NCBI GenBank assembly: GCA_013390375.1
Contig: JACATA010000012.1
Coordinates: forward strand, 1-32,818
DNA from: Marine Group I thaumarchaeote
GTDB lineage: Archaea; Thermoproteota; Nitrososphaeria; Nitrososphaerales; Nitrosopumilaceae
Reading direction: 5' to 3'
Length of the DNA: 32,818 nucleotides
Positions 17,534 through 23,170 of this stretch are shown in pieces. Position 1 is the stretch's first letter, and each line of letters starts with the position of its first letter. The notes below the pieces were generated by a model, which did no database searches, had not been told where the DNA came from, and worked only from the letters and a program-made list of their open reading frames with translations. The position numbers were made by a program, and so were the translations under genes.

Positions 17534-17980
17534 TTAACGATATGATTTTTGTTTTCTTCTTCTAGCGCCAGGCCCACCAAATTTCTTAGGCTCCTTTCTT
17601 CTTGCATCACCACTAATGAGATATTTATCAAATTCATCAATCTTCTTTCTAAGGTCAGTCCTGATAGATTTTGTAAACGGGTGATCTTTGGGATCCTTTT
17701 TACTTTTAGTCCATCCTATTAGCGCTCGTGTTATGGCAGTGGCTGCAGCATATGATTGGCCCATAAAACCGCCTCCGCTAACTCTAACTGAAACATCAAT
17801 TTTATTTCTTAATTCTCCAGAAATTTCAAGCGGAATCAAAATCACTTCACGTGCCATCTCTGGTTCTATCATATCTATTGGTACATTGTTTACTCTAACT
17901 TTTCCTACCCCTTTTTTGATGAAAACATGAGCATTGGCGGTTTTTCTTGTCGCGAAATAAATCTCAGTTTTTACAACCAT
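17534..17980 (-). CDS. rps9: 30S ribosomal protein uS9
   Basis: The product (148 residues from ATG 17980) has the S9 fold: YFATRKTANAHVFIKKG at the N-terminus, VSGGGFMGQSYAAATAITRAL in the middle and the conserved basic tail ARRRKQKSYR that reaches the ribosomal P site. GTG 17989 in frame would add three residues but ATG 17980 shares TAATG with the uL13 stop, a typical coupling junction. It is the last gene of the minus-strand ribosomal cluster. Confidence 0.93.
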   Translation of the reverse strand: MVVKTEIYFATRKTANAHVFIKKGVGKVRVNNVPIDMIEPEMAREVILIPLEISGELRNKIDVSVRVSGGGFMGQSYAAATAITRALIGWTKSKKDPKDHPFTKSIRTDLRKKIDEFDKYLISGDARRKEPKKFGGPGARRRKQKSYR

Positions 17981-18516
17981 TAATGCCACCCAACATATCT
18001 ACCAAGTTCTCCCACGCTCGTATACAACGCACTTGATTTTCTAATCTTTGTTTTTTCAAGCTGTATTTTTCCTAATGGTTTTACATCTTTTGGGACTCCA
18101 ATATACACTCTAAGCCTACTAAGGGCTGCCTTACCTGACGGTTTATCCCTTGGTAACATTCCTCTTATCATCCTACTGATTATCGTATCAGGTTTACGTG
18201 GATGAAATGGACCGTGTTTTGGATGTAAAATACTTGATATCTTTAGGAATTGTTTGTACTCACCAACGATACTTTTCTTTCTACCACTAATCATAATTTT
18301 TTCAGAGTTTACCACCGTGACCCTATTTCCTTGAAGTAATAATTTTGCAACATTAGATGATAGCCTTCCAGCAATATGATCTGTTCCATCTATTACTAAT
18401 GGCCTACTAGTTTTGTCAATTGGCTTCTCTTCTGGTTTAGCTGCTGGCTTTGGTTTAGCTGCTGGCTTTGGTTTAGCTGCTGGCTTTGGTTTAGCTGCTG
18501 GCTTTGGTTTAGCCAA
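17980..18516 (-). CDS. rpl13: 50S ribosomal protein uL13 with an AKPKPA-repeat tail
   Basis: The 178 residues hold a conventional uL13 domain from about residue 38 (RPLVIDGTDHIAGRLSSNVAK, then NSEKIMISGRK and HPRKPDTIISRMIRGMLP). The first ~30 residues are a Lys/Pro/Ala tail made of four AKPKPA units, not part of typical uL13. The start is TTG 18516, overlapping the eL18 stop by 8 nt; no ATG exists before the core domain. The positively charged tail may contact rRNA or be disordered (inference). Confidence 0.9.
   Translation of the reverse strand: MAKPKPAAKPKPAAKPKPAAKPKPAAKPEEKPIDKTSRPLVIDGTDHIAGRLSSNVAKLLLQGNRVTVVNSEKIMISGRKKSIVGEYKQFLKISSILHPKHGPFHPRKPDTIISRMIRGMLPRDKPSGKAALSRLRVYIGVPKDVKPLGKIQLEKTKIRKSSALYTSVGELGRYVGWH
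18442..18513 (-). repeat. 18-nt tandem repeat in the uL13 N-terminus
   Basis: Four identical units encode AKPKPA (18496-18513, 18478-18495, 18460-18477, 18442-18459 on the minus strand), followed by AKPEEK. Identity at synonymous positions points to recent expansion by slippage. Confidence 0.88.
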
Positions 18517-19501: not shown

Positions 19502-19582
19502 ACTTATTGAAAATTTCTGAAATCCAAATAAAAATCTAGCTAGCATCTATAGATTAATATCAATTCTGGCGCTATGAGTACC

Positions 19583-20272
19583 ATGTCAGACAAGTTTACA
19601 GTAGTAAAATACACTTTTGAAGGTGAAAAATTTGAGATATTGGTTAAACCTGATCCAGCACTTGACTATAAACTTGGAAAAATTAAAGATATCAGTTCTG
19701 TTCTCGTATCTGATGAAATATATCAGAATTCAAGCAAGGGTACTCGGGCACCATCTGAAAAATTACAAAAAGCATTCAAAACAGATGATGCTTTAATTAT
19801 TGCGGAAAAAATATTACAGAAAGGAGATCTTAATTTAACAACTGAGCAGCGCCGCAAGATGACTACAGAAAAACGAAAGCAGATAATCACATTTATTGCA
19901 AAGACATTTGTTGATCCGCGTTCTCATTTACCTCACCCACCTATAAGAATTGAGCAGGCTATGACCGACGCTCGCGTAAGCATTGATCCTTTCAAAAATG
20001 TTGAGGAACAAATCAAAGACATCGTGGAGCATGTACGTTCTATTATTCCATTAAAATCAGAAAATCTTTTGTTAGAAATTTCAGTTCCTGCTCAATATGT
20101 AGCAAAGTCTTATTCTGTACTAAAATCAACAGGCATTTTGAAAAAAGAAGATTGGCAGAAAGACGGATCTTTGAAAGCAATACTAGAAATACCTGCCGCA
20201 GCAAGACCAAACGTGATAGATAGATTAGGCGCAATAACAAAAGGCACTGCATTTGTTGAGGTTTTAAAATGA
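19583..20272 (+). CDS. Ribosome maturation protein SBDS (SDO1)
   Basis: Archaeal SBDS, with EF-2-like GTPases, releases the anti-association factor aIF6 from the large subunit. The product has the N-terminal FYSH domain (YTFEGEKFEILVKPD, VSDEIYQNSSKGTRAP), a central QRRKMTTEKRKQIITFIAKTFVDPR helix bundle and a C-terminal ferredoxin-like domain. ATG 19574 would add three residues; ATG 19583 is preferred because an ATTAATAT box (19553-19560) lies 27 nt before it. Its stop overlaps the first rrp4 start by ATGA, beginning the exosome operon. Confidence 0.93.
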   Translation: MSDKFTVVKYTFEGEKFEILVKPDPALDYKLGKIKDISSVLVSDEIYQNSSKGTRAPSEKLQKAFKTDDALIIAEKILQKGDLNLTTEQRRKMTTEKRKQIITFIAKTFVDPRSHLPHPPIRIEQAMTDARVSIDPFKNVEEQIKDIVEHVRSIIPLKSENLLLEISVPAQYVAKSYSVLKSTGILKKEDWQKDGSLKAILEIPAAARPNVIDRLGAITKGTAFVEVLK

Positions 20273-20928
20273 GTGAAAACCAATTTGTTCTTCCAGGTGA
20301 TGTAATTGTTACAGGTGATTATAGACCAGAACAAAATGTTATACTTGAAGGTAACAAACTAATGTCTACAGCAATTGGATTTTCCGAAATAAAAGACGAC
20401 TTGGTTACTGTAACTCCTTTGACTGGATTGTACACTCCAAAAACCGATGATCTAATTATTGGTAAAATTGTATCACATAATGCATTATCATGGCAGGTTG
20501 ACATAAATTCTTACTACTCAGGTATTCTCACGGCATCTGACATCTTTGGAAAAGATTATTCGCCTTCTCGAGATGATCTTTCTTTAAAATTAAAAACAGG
20601 TGACATCATTTTGGCTAGAATTGCAAACGTGAATTCTAGAGATCCCTTAATCACTATAATTGGTGAGAATCTTGGAAAGATTGATTCTGGAGAATTAATT
20701 AAAATCTCTCCCACTAAAATTCCTCGTCTTACTGGATCTGTGATACAAACAATCGAAGCATCTACTAATGCAACTATTACTGTGGGTCAAAATGGCTTAA
20801 TTATTTTAAAATGTGACAATTCTACAGGTTTAAAAAAATCTATTGCGTCTATCAAAATGATTGGTATGGCACAACATGATGCTAATCTTGAAGAAAAAAT
20901 TCAAAAATTTTTAGATGAAAACAATTGA
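20269..20928 (+). CDS. rrp4: Exosome subunit Rrp4, copy 1, lacking the KH GxxG loop
   Basis: Rrp4 is an RNA-binding cap subunit of the archaeal exosome. The 219-residue product has the N-terminal domain (LPGDVIVTGDYRPEQNVILEG), an S1 domain (~60-130) and a C-terminal KH-like domain. In the KH domain the sequence PRLTGSVIQTIE replaces PRLIGKHGSMIQTIE of copy 2: three residues of the RNA-binding GxxG loop are missing after G156. The rest remains open and well conserved, so it is probably expressed, not a pseudogene. It is followed by copy 2 with a 4-nt overlap. Confidence 0.9.
   Translation: MSENQFVLPGDVIVTGDYRPEQNVILEGNKLMSTAIGFSEIKDDLVTVTPLTGLYTPKTDDLIIGKIVSHNALSWQVDINSYYSGILTASDIFGKDYSPSRDDLSLKLKTGDIILARIANVNSRDPLITIIGENLGKIDSGELIKISPTKIPRLTGSVIQTIEASTNATITVGQNGLIILKCDNSTGLKKSIASIKMIGMAQHDANLEEKIQKFLDENN
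20674..20796 (+). repeat. Near-identical Rrp4 tract, copy A (second copy 21345-21476)
   Basis: Aligned codon by codon with 21345-21476, 117 of 123 shared bases match. The only gap is 9 nt (21408-21416) encoding KHG, absent in copy A. Outside the tract the two genes differ at many positions. This pattern suggests gene conversion or strong constraint restricted to the KH-linker region. Confidence 0.85.
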
Positions 20929-21611
20929 AGAAATTAGAATCTAAAAAGCGATATGTTCTGCCAGGTGATTTTATTACTACTGCACCTCTTCGGTTACAGG
21001 ATAATGTTGTATTAGAAGGTAAACGAGTTATTTCAACTACTATAGGATTATCTGATGTTTCTGCTGATAGTGTACGAGTAATCTCACTAAATGGAATTTA
21101 CATGCCAAAAATAGACGACTTGGTAATAGGTACGATTCAATCTATTTTTGGCAATTCTTGGTTTGCAGATATCAATTCATGTTATCAAGGAATGCTTTTG
21201 GGTCAGGATGTATTTGGAAGAGGTTCATATCCTACCACGAGCGAAATGAAAGAGAGACTTGATAAAGGTGATATCATCTTTGCAAGAATTGCAAATTCTG
21301 ATAGACAGCGTGAACCTTTAATTTCTATTGCAGACAAAAATCTGGGAAAGATTGATTCTGGAGAATTAATTAAAATCCCTCCCACTAAAATCCCTCGTCT
21401 TATTGGAAAACATGGATCTATGATACAAACAATCGAAGCGTCTACTAATGCAACTATTACTGTAGGTCAAAATGGCTTTATTGTTGTATCTTGTGATGAA
21501 ACAAATGGATTATTAAAGGCACTTGCAGCAATTCGGATGATTGATGAACAAGCACATCTTGTTGATTTGACAGATAAAGTGAAAAAAATGTTGGAATTTA
21601 ATGGTGTATAA
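20925..21611 (+). CDS. rrp4: Exosome subunit Rrp4, copy 2, canonical
   Basis: The 228-residue product has the full Rrp4 architecture: N-terminal domain (VLPGDFITTAPLRLQDNVVLEG), S1 domain (~65-135) and KH domain with an intact IGKHGSM loop (160-166). It starts with TTG 20925 overlapping the stop of copy 1 (20925-20928). Outside a near-identical tract the two copies have clearly diverged. Copy 2 lies directly before rrp41, the usual archaeal order rrp4-rrp41-rrp42, and is likely the canonical cap protein. Confidence 0.92.
   Translation: MKKLESKKRYVLPGDFITTAPLRLQDNVVLEGKRVISTTIGLSDVSADSVRVISLNGIYMPKIDDLVIGTIQSIFGNSWFADINSCYQGMLLGQDVFGRGSYPTTSEMKERLDKGDIIFARIANSDRQREPLISIADKNLGKIDSGELIKIPPTKIPRLIGKHGSMIQTIEASTNATITVGQNGFIVVSCDETNGLLKALAAIRMIDEQAHLVDLTDKVKKMLEFNGV
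21345..21476 (+). repeat. Near-identical Rrp4 tract, copy B
   Basis: This is the partner of 20674-20796. It carries the extra 9 nt at 21408-21416 that complete the KH GxxG loop. The tract starts at a shared GGA-AAG codon pair and ends at GGC, after which the genes diverge again. Confidence 0.85.
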
Positions 21612-21614
21612 TTA

Positions 21615-22352
21615 ATGGGAGGACGAGAAACTGATGTAGTATTACTTGACGAAAATGGGATTCGTAGTGATGGACGCAAGGTAAATGAAACAAGAAAGGT
21701 TACCATAAAAGTCGGAGTATTAAAAAACGCTGATGGTTCTGCGTATATTGAATTTGGTGGAAATAAAATTCTTGCCGGTGTTTTTGGTCCAAGAGATGTT
21801 CATCCAAAACATATGTCAAATCCAGACACTGGAATTTTAAGAGTCAGATATCATATGGAGCCTTTTTCTGTTAGTGAAAGAAAAAATCCGGCGCCATCAC
21901 GACGAGAAATAGAGATCAGTAAAGTTCTCAAGGAAGCATTAGAACCTGCTGTAATACTTGAAAAGTTCCCTAGAACTGCAATTGATGTGTATCTTGAAGT
22001 ATTGCAAGCAGATGGTGGAACTAGATGTGCTGCATTAGATGCGGCATCAGTTGCATTAGCGGATGCAGGAATTCCAATGAGAGATATGGTATGTTCATGT
22101 GCTGCAGGAAAAGCTGCGGATGCTTTAATTCTTGATGTTAATAATGAAGAAGACCAAGCTGGACAAGCCGATATGCCAATAGGTTACATGCCAAACTTGG
22201 GAAAAATCACACTTTTACAATTAGATGGTGTTCTCACCACCGATGAATTCAAAAAATGTATAGAACTAGGTTTAGAAGGTTGTAAACAGGTATATGAAAT
22301 ACAGAAAAATGCATTGCGTGAAAAATATTTTTCGAGTGGTGATAACAACTAA
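21615..22352 (+). CDS. rrp41: Exosome catalytic subunit Rrp41
   Basis: This is the phosphorolytic active subunit of the hexameric RNase PH ring. The 245 residues contain RSDGRKVNETRKVTIKVGVL, REIEISKVLKEALEPAVILEKFPRT (phosphate and RNA-binding arginines), ADGGTRCAALDAASVALADAGI and the acidic EEDQAGQADMPIGYMP segment expected to hold the catalytic Asp. ATG 21615 lies 3 bp after rrp4 copy 2 and the stop overlaps rrp42 by 1 nt (TAATG). Confidence 0.95.
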   Translation: MGGRETDVVLLDENGIRSDGRKVNETRKVTIKVGVLKNADGSAYIEFGGNKILAGVFGPRDVHPKHMSNPDTGILRVRYHMEPFSVSERKNPAPSRREIEISKVLKEALEPAVILEKFPRTAIDVYLEVLQADGGTRCAALDAASVALADAGIPMRDMVCSCAAGKAADALILDVNNEEDQAGQADMPIGYMPNLGKITLLQLDGVLTTDEFKKCIELGLEGCKQVYEIQKNALREKYFSSGDNN

Positions 22353-23170
22353 TGACAAACCTTTCAATTATAGACAAACTCAAAAGATCTAAAATTCTAG
22401 ATTTACTGCAGGAAGGAAAAAGAATTGATGATCGTGCACTAGATGAACCTAGACCTTTAGTTATTGATACTGGAGTTATACCTCACGCTAATGGTTCTGC
22501 ACGGGCTAGATTAGGTGACACAGAAGTTGTATCGGGGATCAAAGTTCAACCTGACAAACCTTTTCCTGATATGGGTGACAAGGGAATCTTTATCTGCACA
22601 GCAGAAATTCTTCCATTAGCTCATCCAAGTGCAGAAACAGGTCCTCCTCAACCAAATGTGATAGAGATAGCTAGAGTGGTTGATAGAGGAATACGGGAAA
22701 GTGGTATGATTGATTTATCACAGATGGTTTTACAGAAAGACAAATCTGTCATTGGCGTGTTTGCTGATAATGTAGTAACTGATCATGACGGTAATTTGTT
22801 TGATGCATGTTCATATGCAGCTGTTGCTGCAATTATTACATCAAAGATTCCAAAATGGGAAATGAAAGATGACAAACCTGTTTTAATAGAGGATCAGGCA
22901 TCAGACACACCAATTACTACCATTCCAATATCAGTTACAATGGGACTAATGGGCGAATTCATAATTGTAGATCCAAATCTTGATGAATGGGAATGTCTTG
23001 ATGCTAGAATAACAATTACTACAAACTCTGATGGAAATATTGTAGCGCTTCAAAAGGGTGGCAGTGACGGATTTTCACTTGAGCAACTTGTTAAATGCTC
23101 TGAATTATCCATTGTAGTTGGTAAAAAAATCAGAGATATTATAAAACAAGCAACAGAAGGTAGTAAATAA
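22352..23170 (+). CDS. rrp42: Exosome subunit Rrp42
   Basis: This is the non-catalytic RNase PH-fold partner of Rrp41. The 272-residue product has RIDDRALDEPRPLVIDTGVIPHANGSARARLGDTEVV, the family signature, and ARVVDRGIRESGMIDLSQMVL. It is longer than Rrp41 as usual for Rrp42, and lacks the EEDxxG(E/Q)AD active-site motif seen in Rrp41. It overlaps rrp41 by 1 nt and precedes eL43 by 1 bp. Confidence 0.95.
   Translation: MTNLSIIDKLKRSKILDLLQEGKRIDDRALDEPRPLVIDTGVIPHANGSARARLGDTEVVSGIKVQPDKPFPDMGDKGIFICTAEILPLAHPSAETGPPQPNVIEIARVVDRGIRESGMIDLSQMVLQKDKSVIGVFADNVVTDHDGNLFDACSYAAVAAIITSKIPKWEMKDDKPVLIEDQASDTPITTIPISVTMGLMGEFIIVDPNLDEWECLDARITITTNSDGNIVALQKGGSDGFSLEQLVKCSELSIVVGKKIRDIIKQATEGSK

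Follow-up and report, generated by a model that had tools for sequence, protein, structure and literature searches.

The N-terminal domain (NTD) of Rrp4 makes most of the contacts with the exosome ring, and RNA enters the ring via the S1 pore (PMC11201974). Archaeal caps mix Rrp4 and Csl4 as heterotrimers; Csl4 is required for tight binding of DnaG, and the preference for poly(A) is conferred by Rrp4 (PMC7667871). Thus, a heteromeric cap as such has already been described; a sequence-only reading of the locus discussed here had considered that a heteromeric or alternative cap with altered RNA preference would be new. In the KH domain, the motif VPRVIGxxG is conserved in the Rrp4 proteins of A. 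fulgidus and P. abyssi and absent from those of S. solfataricus and yeast (PMC11201974). Loss of GxxG by itself is, therefore, not new, and this loop, which is common but not universal in Rrp4, was not counted as a family-defining feature.

The window analyzed, i.e., the whole stretch of 32,818 nucleotides, is contig C9 of a small genome (G000; 1.05 Mb in 37 contigs) from an ammonia-oxidising archaeal lineage. Its closest relatives in the databases are single-cell genomes of Marine Group I thaumarchaeotes and one Candidatus Nitrosopelagicus MAG. SBDS, two copies of rrp4, rrp41, and rrp42 are arranged head-to-tail between positions 19574 and 23170 on the + strand, with the following features:

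19574-20272, + strand: SBDS ribosome-assembly factor, 5' of copy 1 (TIGR00291, E 6.3e-65)
20269-20928, + strand: rrp4 copy 1, 219 amino acids, ATG start; ECR1-type NTD, S1 domain, and KH domain with a degenerate loop (NF003181, E 2.5e-59)
20674-20799, + strand: gene-conversion tract, copy-1 side, from GKIDSGEL to VGQNGL (nucleotide identity to copy 2)
20722-20751, + strand: KH loop of copy 1, PRLTG-SVIQT (codon alignment)
20925-21611, + strand: rrp4 copy 2, 228 amino acids, TTG start; GKHG loop intact, NTD and S1 domain diverged (NF003181, E 2.1e-69)
21345-21479, + strand: gene-conversion tract, copy-2 side, with GKHG at 21405-21416 (nucleotide identity to copy 1)
21615-22352, + strand: rrp41, catalytic subunit of the exosome ring (TIGR02065, E 2.3e-112)
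22352-23170, + strand: rrp42, subunit of the exosome ring (NF003282, E 1.1e-83)

The TGA stop codon of SBDS overlaps the ATG start codon of copy 1 (ATGA), and the stop codon of copy 1 overlaps the TTG start codon of copy 2 (TTGA). Relatives with a single rrp4 gene, as far as examined, carry it at this site between SBDS and rrp41. Scans for promoters and terminators, with models that are not of archaeal promoters, revealed nothing above chance. Upstream of the cluster, a - strand gene (17980-18516), which from its sequence resembles that for ribosomal protein L13, contains a perfect 18-nt repeat in 4.5 copies (18433-18513) encoding an N-terminal extension of the type (PKPAAK)n.

Both copies are genuine, divergent paralogues of Rrp4 that are maintained across a clade. 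Over 221 aligned residues, 53% are identical. In a comparison with the NCBIfam equivalog model for Rrp4, NF003181, copy 1 scored 200.2 bits over residues 4-217, barely above the cut-off of 200, and copy 2, a full-length Rrp4 with an intact GxxG loop (GKHG), scored 233 bits. This agrees with the sequence-only reading, which had described two complete and divergent rrp4 genes in front of rrp41. Copy 1 matched the ECR1_N_2, RRP4_S1, and KH_6 domains (PF22625, PF21266, PF15985), all above cut-off; in the Pfam domain search, KH_1 (PF00013) was not matched by copy 1, and copy 2 matched it at E 1.4e-9. The top matches of both copies in the structural database are archaeal Rrp4 proteins (E 1e-22 to 1e-37), with PDB entry 2z0s matched by copy 1 at E 5.9e-33 and 3l7z by copy 2 at E 6.7e-37. 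Neither is nearer to eukaryotic Rrp40 or Rrp4, as eukaryotic structures were matched at E 1e-9 or weaker, and neither is a Csl4: the scores with the Csl4 model (cut-off 90) were 38 and 27 bits for copies 1 and 2, respectively. A separate, true Csl4 is encoded on contig C19, and DnaG is also encoded elsewhere in the genome. Loss of GxxG is uncommon but precedented and does not take copy 1 out of the Rrp4 family; the concern that it might group with another family does not apply, as copy 1 is an Rrp4. When AlphaFold was run on the two copies with an alignment of 12 sequences, confidence was low (pLDDT 51 and 52), probably due to the lack of a deep alignment, and the models are uninformative.

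Among the 31 genomes of the genus, the tandem is found at the same site in eight (G000, G302, G266, G303, G316, G317, G318, and G312), several of which are incomplete single-cell or metagenome assemblies, and one complete rrp4 gene in 19; in G212, the contig ends inside copy 2. The carriers include the single-cell genomes AC-661-N08, which is the nearest relative of the source genome (G302), AC-647-G13, and AG-464-C10. In a survey of Nitrososphaeria, an Rrp4 match was present in 294 of 300 genomes, single in nearly all of them. Among 398 Thermoproteota genomes surveyed, 19 with multiple hits were checked, and nearly all of the additional matches in them resembled Csl4, with NTD and S1 domain but no KH domain. 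In the Nitrososphaeria and Thermoproteota surveyed, one Rrp4 is, thus, indeed the usual number, as the sequence-only reading had assumed for archaea. One MAG (G618) contains two full-length rrp4 genes on separate contigs. A second rrp4 broken by an in-frame stop codon in another genus of the same family (G108, C7:257921-258576) is possibly an independent extra copy that is now decaying, and G276 has an additional, incomplete copy that begins at base 2 of a contig. Other candidates were discarded: the two matches in G325 are pieces of one gene, and apparent SBDS-Rrp4 fusions in G159, G176, and G180 are out-of-frame readings over SBDS. A literature search, which was thin on subscription papers, yielded no account of paired Rrp4 proteins in ammonia-oxidising archaea.

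The KH loop reads LTG-SVIQT in copy 1 and LIGKHGSMIQT in copy 2 of the window, and the codon alignment places the loss in copy 1 as an in-frame gap of 9 nt, relative to copy 2, between positions 20733 and 20734. The copy-1 loop is LTG---SVIQT in G000 and G302 and LTD---SIIQT in G316-G318, whilst in the other carriers its length is kept and one glycine is lost (LTEKNGSMIQT in G266, LLGKHKSMIQS in G303, and LISKHGSMIQT in G312). The loss of three residues, emphasized in the sequence-only reading, is, thus, real in this genome but is not the general rule in the clade: it is one of four types of lesion, the others being G to E, G to K, and G to S. Four is the most parsimonious count of types, and the shared deletion may represent one or two events, depending on the branching order of the lineages. 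In copy 2, the loop is LIGKHGSMIQ or LIGKRGSMIQ in all tandem genomes. Hence, none of the eight copy-1 proteins has an intact GxxG, whereas every copy-2 protein does, as do, without exception, the 46 aligned single-copy rows of the genus and the family. Elsewhere in the Thermoproteota, it is intact in 41 and missing in 8 of 49 rows; among the latter is a GKNK loop, the form also present in the S. solfataricus structures 3l7z and 2je6. Rrp4 proteins without GxxG in other families of Nitrososphaeria and Thermoproteota are L171, L174, L175, L133, L126, L120, and L149; some of them have wholly different loops (LLDRRE, LLKSKS, LYASRS). The interpretation made from the sequence alone is upheld only in part: copy 1 lacks GxxG in all eight tandem genomes, but the 8 exceptions among the other 49 rows and the published cases (PMC11201974) show that such a loss alone is no proof of a new function.

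The possibility that the rrp4 genes of two strains were collapsed into a false tandem, or that the deletion in the loop is a sequencing error, deserves virtually no credence. One chimera does occur in this data set: in a relative, ETNP7_MAG_54 (G312), copy 2 on contig C21 (L093 / L101) has an N-terminus of the type found on contig C77 (L102) and is otherwise of the G303/G212 type. As revealed by the second contig, it is, by its sequence, a chimera of assembly or recombination, and the copy from contig C77 was therefore taken as the partner in the analyses of G312. However, the same tandem recurs in independent assemblies, the three single-cell genomes among them, the orthologues of either copy yield consistent trees, and the deletion is in frame. 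Since the same 9-nt gap is present in G302, it is not a sequencing error, and no relative was found to have an intact loop in copy 1, which disposes of a further reservation made from the sequence alone.

In a species tree based on seven neighboring proteins, the tandem genomes are monophyletic (support 100/99), so that a single duplication is the simplest account of their origin. When the converted KH tract (see below) was left out of the Rrp4 gene tree, the sequences of each copy grouped together (100/99 and 100/100); the stem was 0.81 changes per column for copy 1 and 0.55 for copy 2. The species-tree stem of the tandem clade is 0.071 on the concatenate; as different alignments are involved, this comparison is indicative only, but it suggests that both copies evolved unusually fast after the duplication. 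The gene tree does not join the two copies and, with weak support (87/77), puts copy 1 next to the genes of single-copy members of the genus; this might be taken to mean that copy 1 did not arise locally by duplication but was transferred from a different archaeon. Such a transfer is very improbable: sisterhood of the copies is allowed by the AU test (p 0.38), the long stems make the placement unreliable, no donor lineage appears in the tree, and the tandem position favors duplication. The long stem of copy 1, together with its marginal score against the Rrp4 model, could also indicate that it left the exosome to become a stand-alone S1-KH RNA-binding protein. This, too, is improbable, albeit somewhat less so, as the gene lies in the exosome cluster with overlapping neighbors in 8 of 8 genomes and its product retains nearly all conserved residues of the NTD, the main contact with the ring (PMC11201974).

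The two copies are homogenised by gene conversion near the loop in most tandem genomes, yet the loop itself differs. In the source genome, they are 96% identical at the nucleotide level outside the loop in the tract from GKIDSGEL to VGQNGL, against 57% in the flanks. Within-genome identity of the tract is 95-96% in four lineages, 82% in G318, and 76% in G317, with flanks of about 56%; in G312, the alignment contains more than 50 consecutive bases identical between the copies. Among 720 possible pairings of copies 1 and 2, the pairing within each genome gave the highest total identity. In the four lineages with recent conversion, the seven-codon loop differs at 14 of 75 nucleotides and the rest of the tract at 20 of 444 (Fisher p 7e-5; p 2e-4 at the residue level). 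These p-values are descriptive, since the loop window was picked after viewing the alignment and related rows were compared. This leaves two histories: renewed breakage of the loop following every conversion, or failure of loop-restoring conversions to persist. Either history suggests that copy 1 does not require an intact loop or is better off without one.

Purifying selection acts on copy 1, albeit less strongly than on copy 2, so that the gene is not a pseudogene: in five comparisons, dN/dS (NG86) was 0.17, 0.13, 0.20, 0.25, and 0.34 for copy 1 and 0.04, 0.04, 0.08, 0.08, and 0.12 for copy 2, i.e., about 2.5 to 4 times higher in copy 1. The copies also differ in what they have shed. Among positions invariant in single-copy Rrp4, the losses confined to copy 1 number 5 in the NTD and S1 domain and 11 in the KH domain, and those confined to copy 2 number 13 and 1, respectively (Fisher p 8e-4, with arbitrary thresholds set after viewing the alignment and related rows). 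This complementary pattern matches, at the level of sequence, what a division of labor would predict. Together with the gene conversion, the losses from the NTD and S1 domain of copy 2, neither of which figured in the sequence-only reading, constitute better evidence for a split of functions.

Relaxed constraint would explain part of these data. Copy 2 would then do the KH-mediated RNA binding, and copy 1 would serve structurally, with its NTD for docking and its S1 domain in the pore, so that its loop decays unselected and no new RNA preference arises. The lesions differ between lineages, which resembles decay rather than one adaptive form, dN/dS is higher in copy 1, and the absence of GxxG from some single-copy Rrp4 proteins implies that loss of the loop may reflect relaxation. 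However, a KH domain released from constraint should differ throughout, and not predominantly in the loop as observed in the converted tracts, and copy 2 has shed conserved S1 and NTD residues as well. As a full account, this explanation is possible but rather doubtful, although decay of the loop in a copy that acts as structural filler may be partly true.

The reading preferred here, with a probability of about 0.57, is that the copies are subfunctionalised cap subunits, which arose from one tandem duplication, divided the ancestral duties, and form mixed caps. The duplication would have occurred once, in the common ancestor of one sub-clade within this Nitrosopelagicus-like genus. Copy 1 (Rrp4a) has kept more of the ancestral residues in the NTD and S1 domain, with degeneration of the KH loop and divergence of the KH C-terminus, whilst copy 2 (Rrp4b) has kept the GxxG loop and the KH C-terminus and has changed in the NTD and S1 domain. 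Both are presumably co-expressed from the SBDS-rrp4a-rrp4b-rrp41-rrp42 cluster, with probable translational coupling. Since only 1 of 20 conserved NTD positions was lost exclusively in copy 1, which keeps nearly all of them, and copy 2 keeps most, both should dock on the Rrp41-Rrp42 ring. The cap would then draw on a pool of Rrp4a, Rrp4b, and Csl4 with DnaG in varying numbers, in which the KH loop is intact on Rrp4b only, and some positions of a mixed cap would present no KH loop to RNA. Co-expression, co-assembly, stoichiometry, and altered RNA handling of the two copies are all inferred from sequence.

Both copies resemble the archaeal Rrp4 proteins of S. solfataricus, A. fulgidus, and T. 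acidophilum in their NTD-S1-KH layout and match them over the full length, and the gene order of the single-copy archaeal relatives, SBDS-rrp4-rrp41-rrp42, is preserved. Whereas those clusters contain one rrp4 gene, here there are two paralogues, the first without GxxG, although the S. solfataricus Rrp4 in the solved structures likewise lacks the second glycine (GKNK). The mixed caps proposed here are similar to the archaeal Rrp4/Csl4 caps with DnaG, which differ in RNA preference (PMC7667871, PMC4227792), but a second Rrp4 in the pool would add a third cap type. In eukaryotes, Rrp4 and Rrp40, both homologous to archaeal Rrp4, are likewise two diverged S1-KH subunits beside Csl4, and the yeast structure likewise lacks the GxxG loop (PMC11201974). 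A bolder and rather unlikely extension of the preferred reading is that the eukaryotic Rrp4/Rrp40 split was repeated independently, with obligate co-assembly, an asymmetric cap carrying a KH loop at some positions only, and selection that breaks the copy-1 loop again whenever conversion restores it. The transition from the symmetric archaeal cap to the asymmetric eukaryotic one (Rrp4, Rrp40, and Csl4) has been inferred from its end points only. A more recent, independent duplication of Rrp4, with single-copy sister species and recurrent loss of the loop, would amount to a natural repetition of this event that is open to reconstitution in vitro. In addition, a loop that breaks repeatedly against a background of gene conversion would allow one to ask clearly whether selection favors the loss of an RNA contact in one subunit. 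In contrast to the eukaryotic situation, the duplication took place within one archaeal genus, and the ring offers three equivalent Rrp41-Rrp42 docking sites, so that the positions of the two paralogues would not be fixed by different ring subunits.
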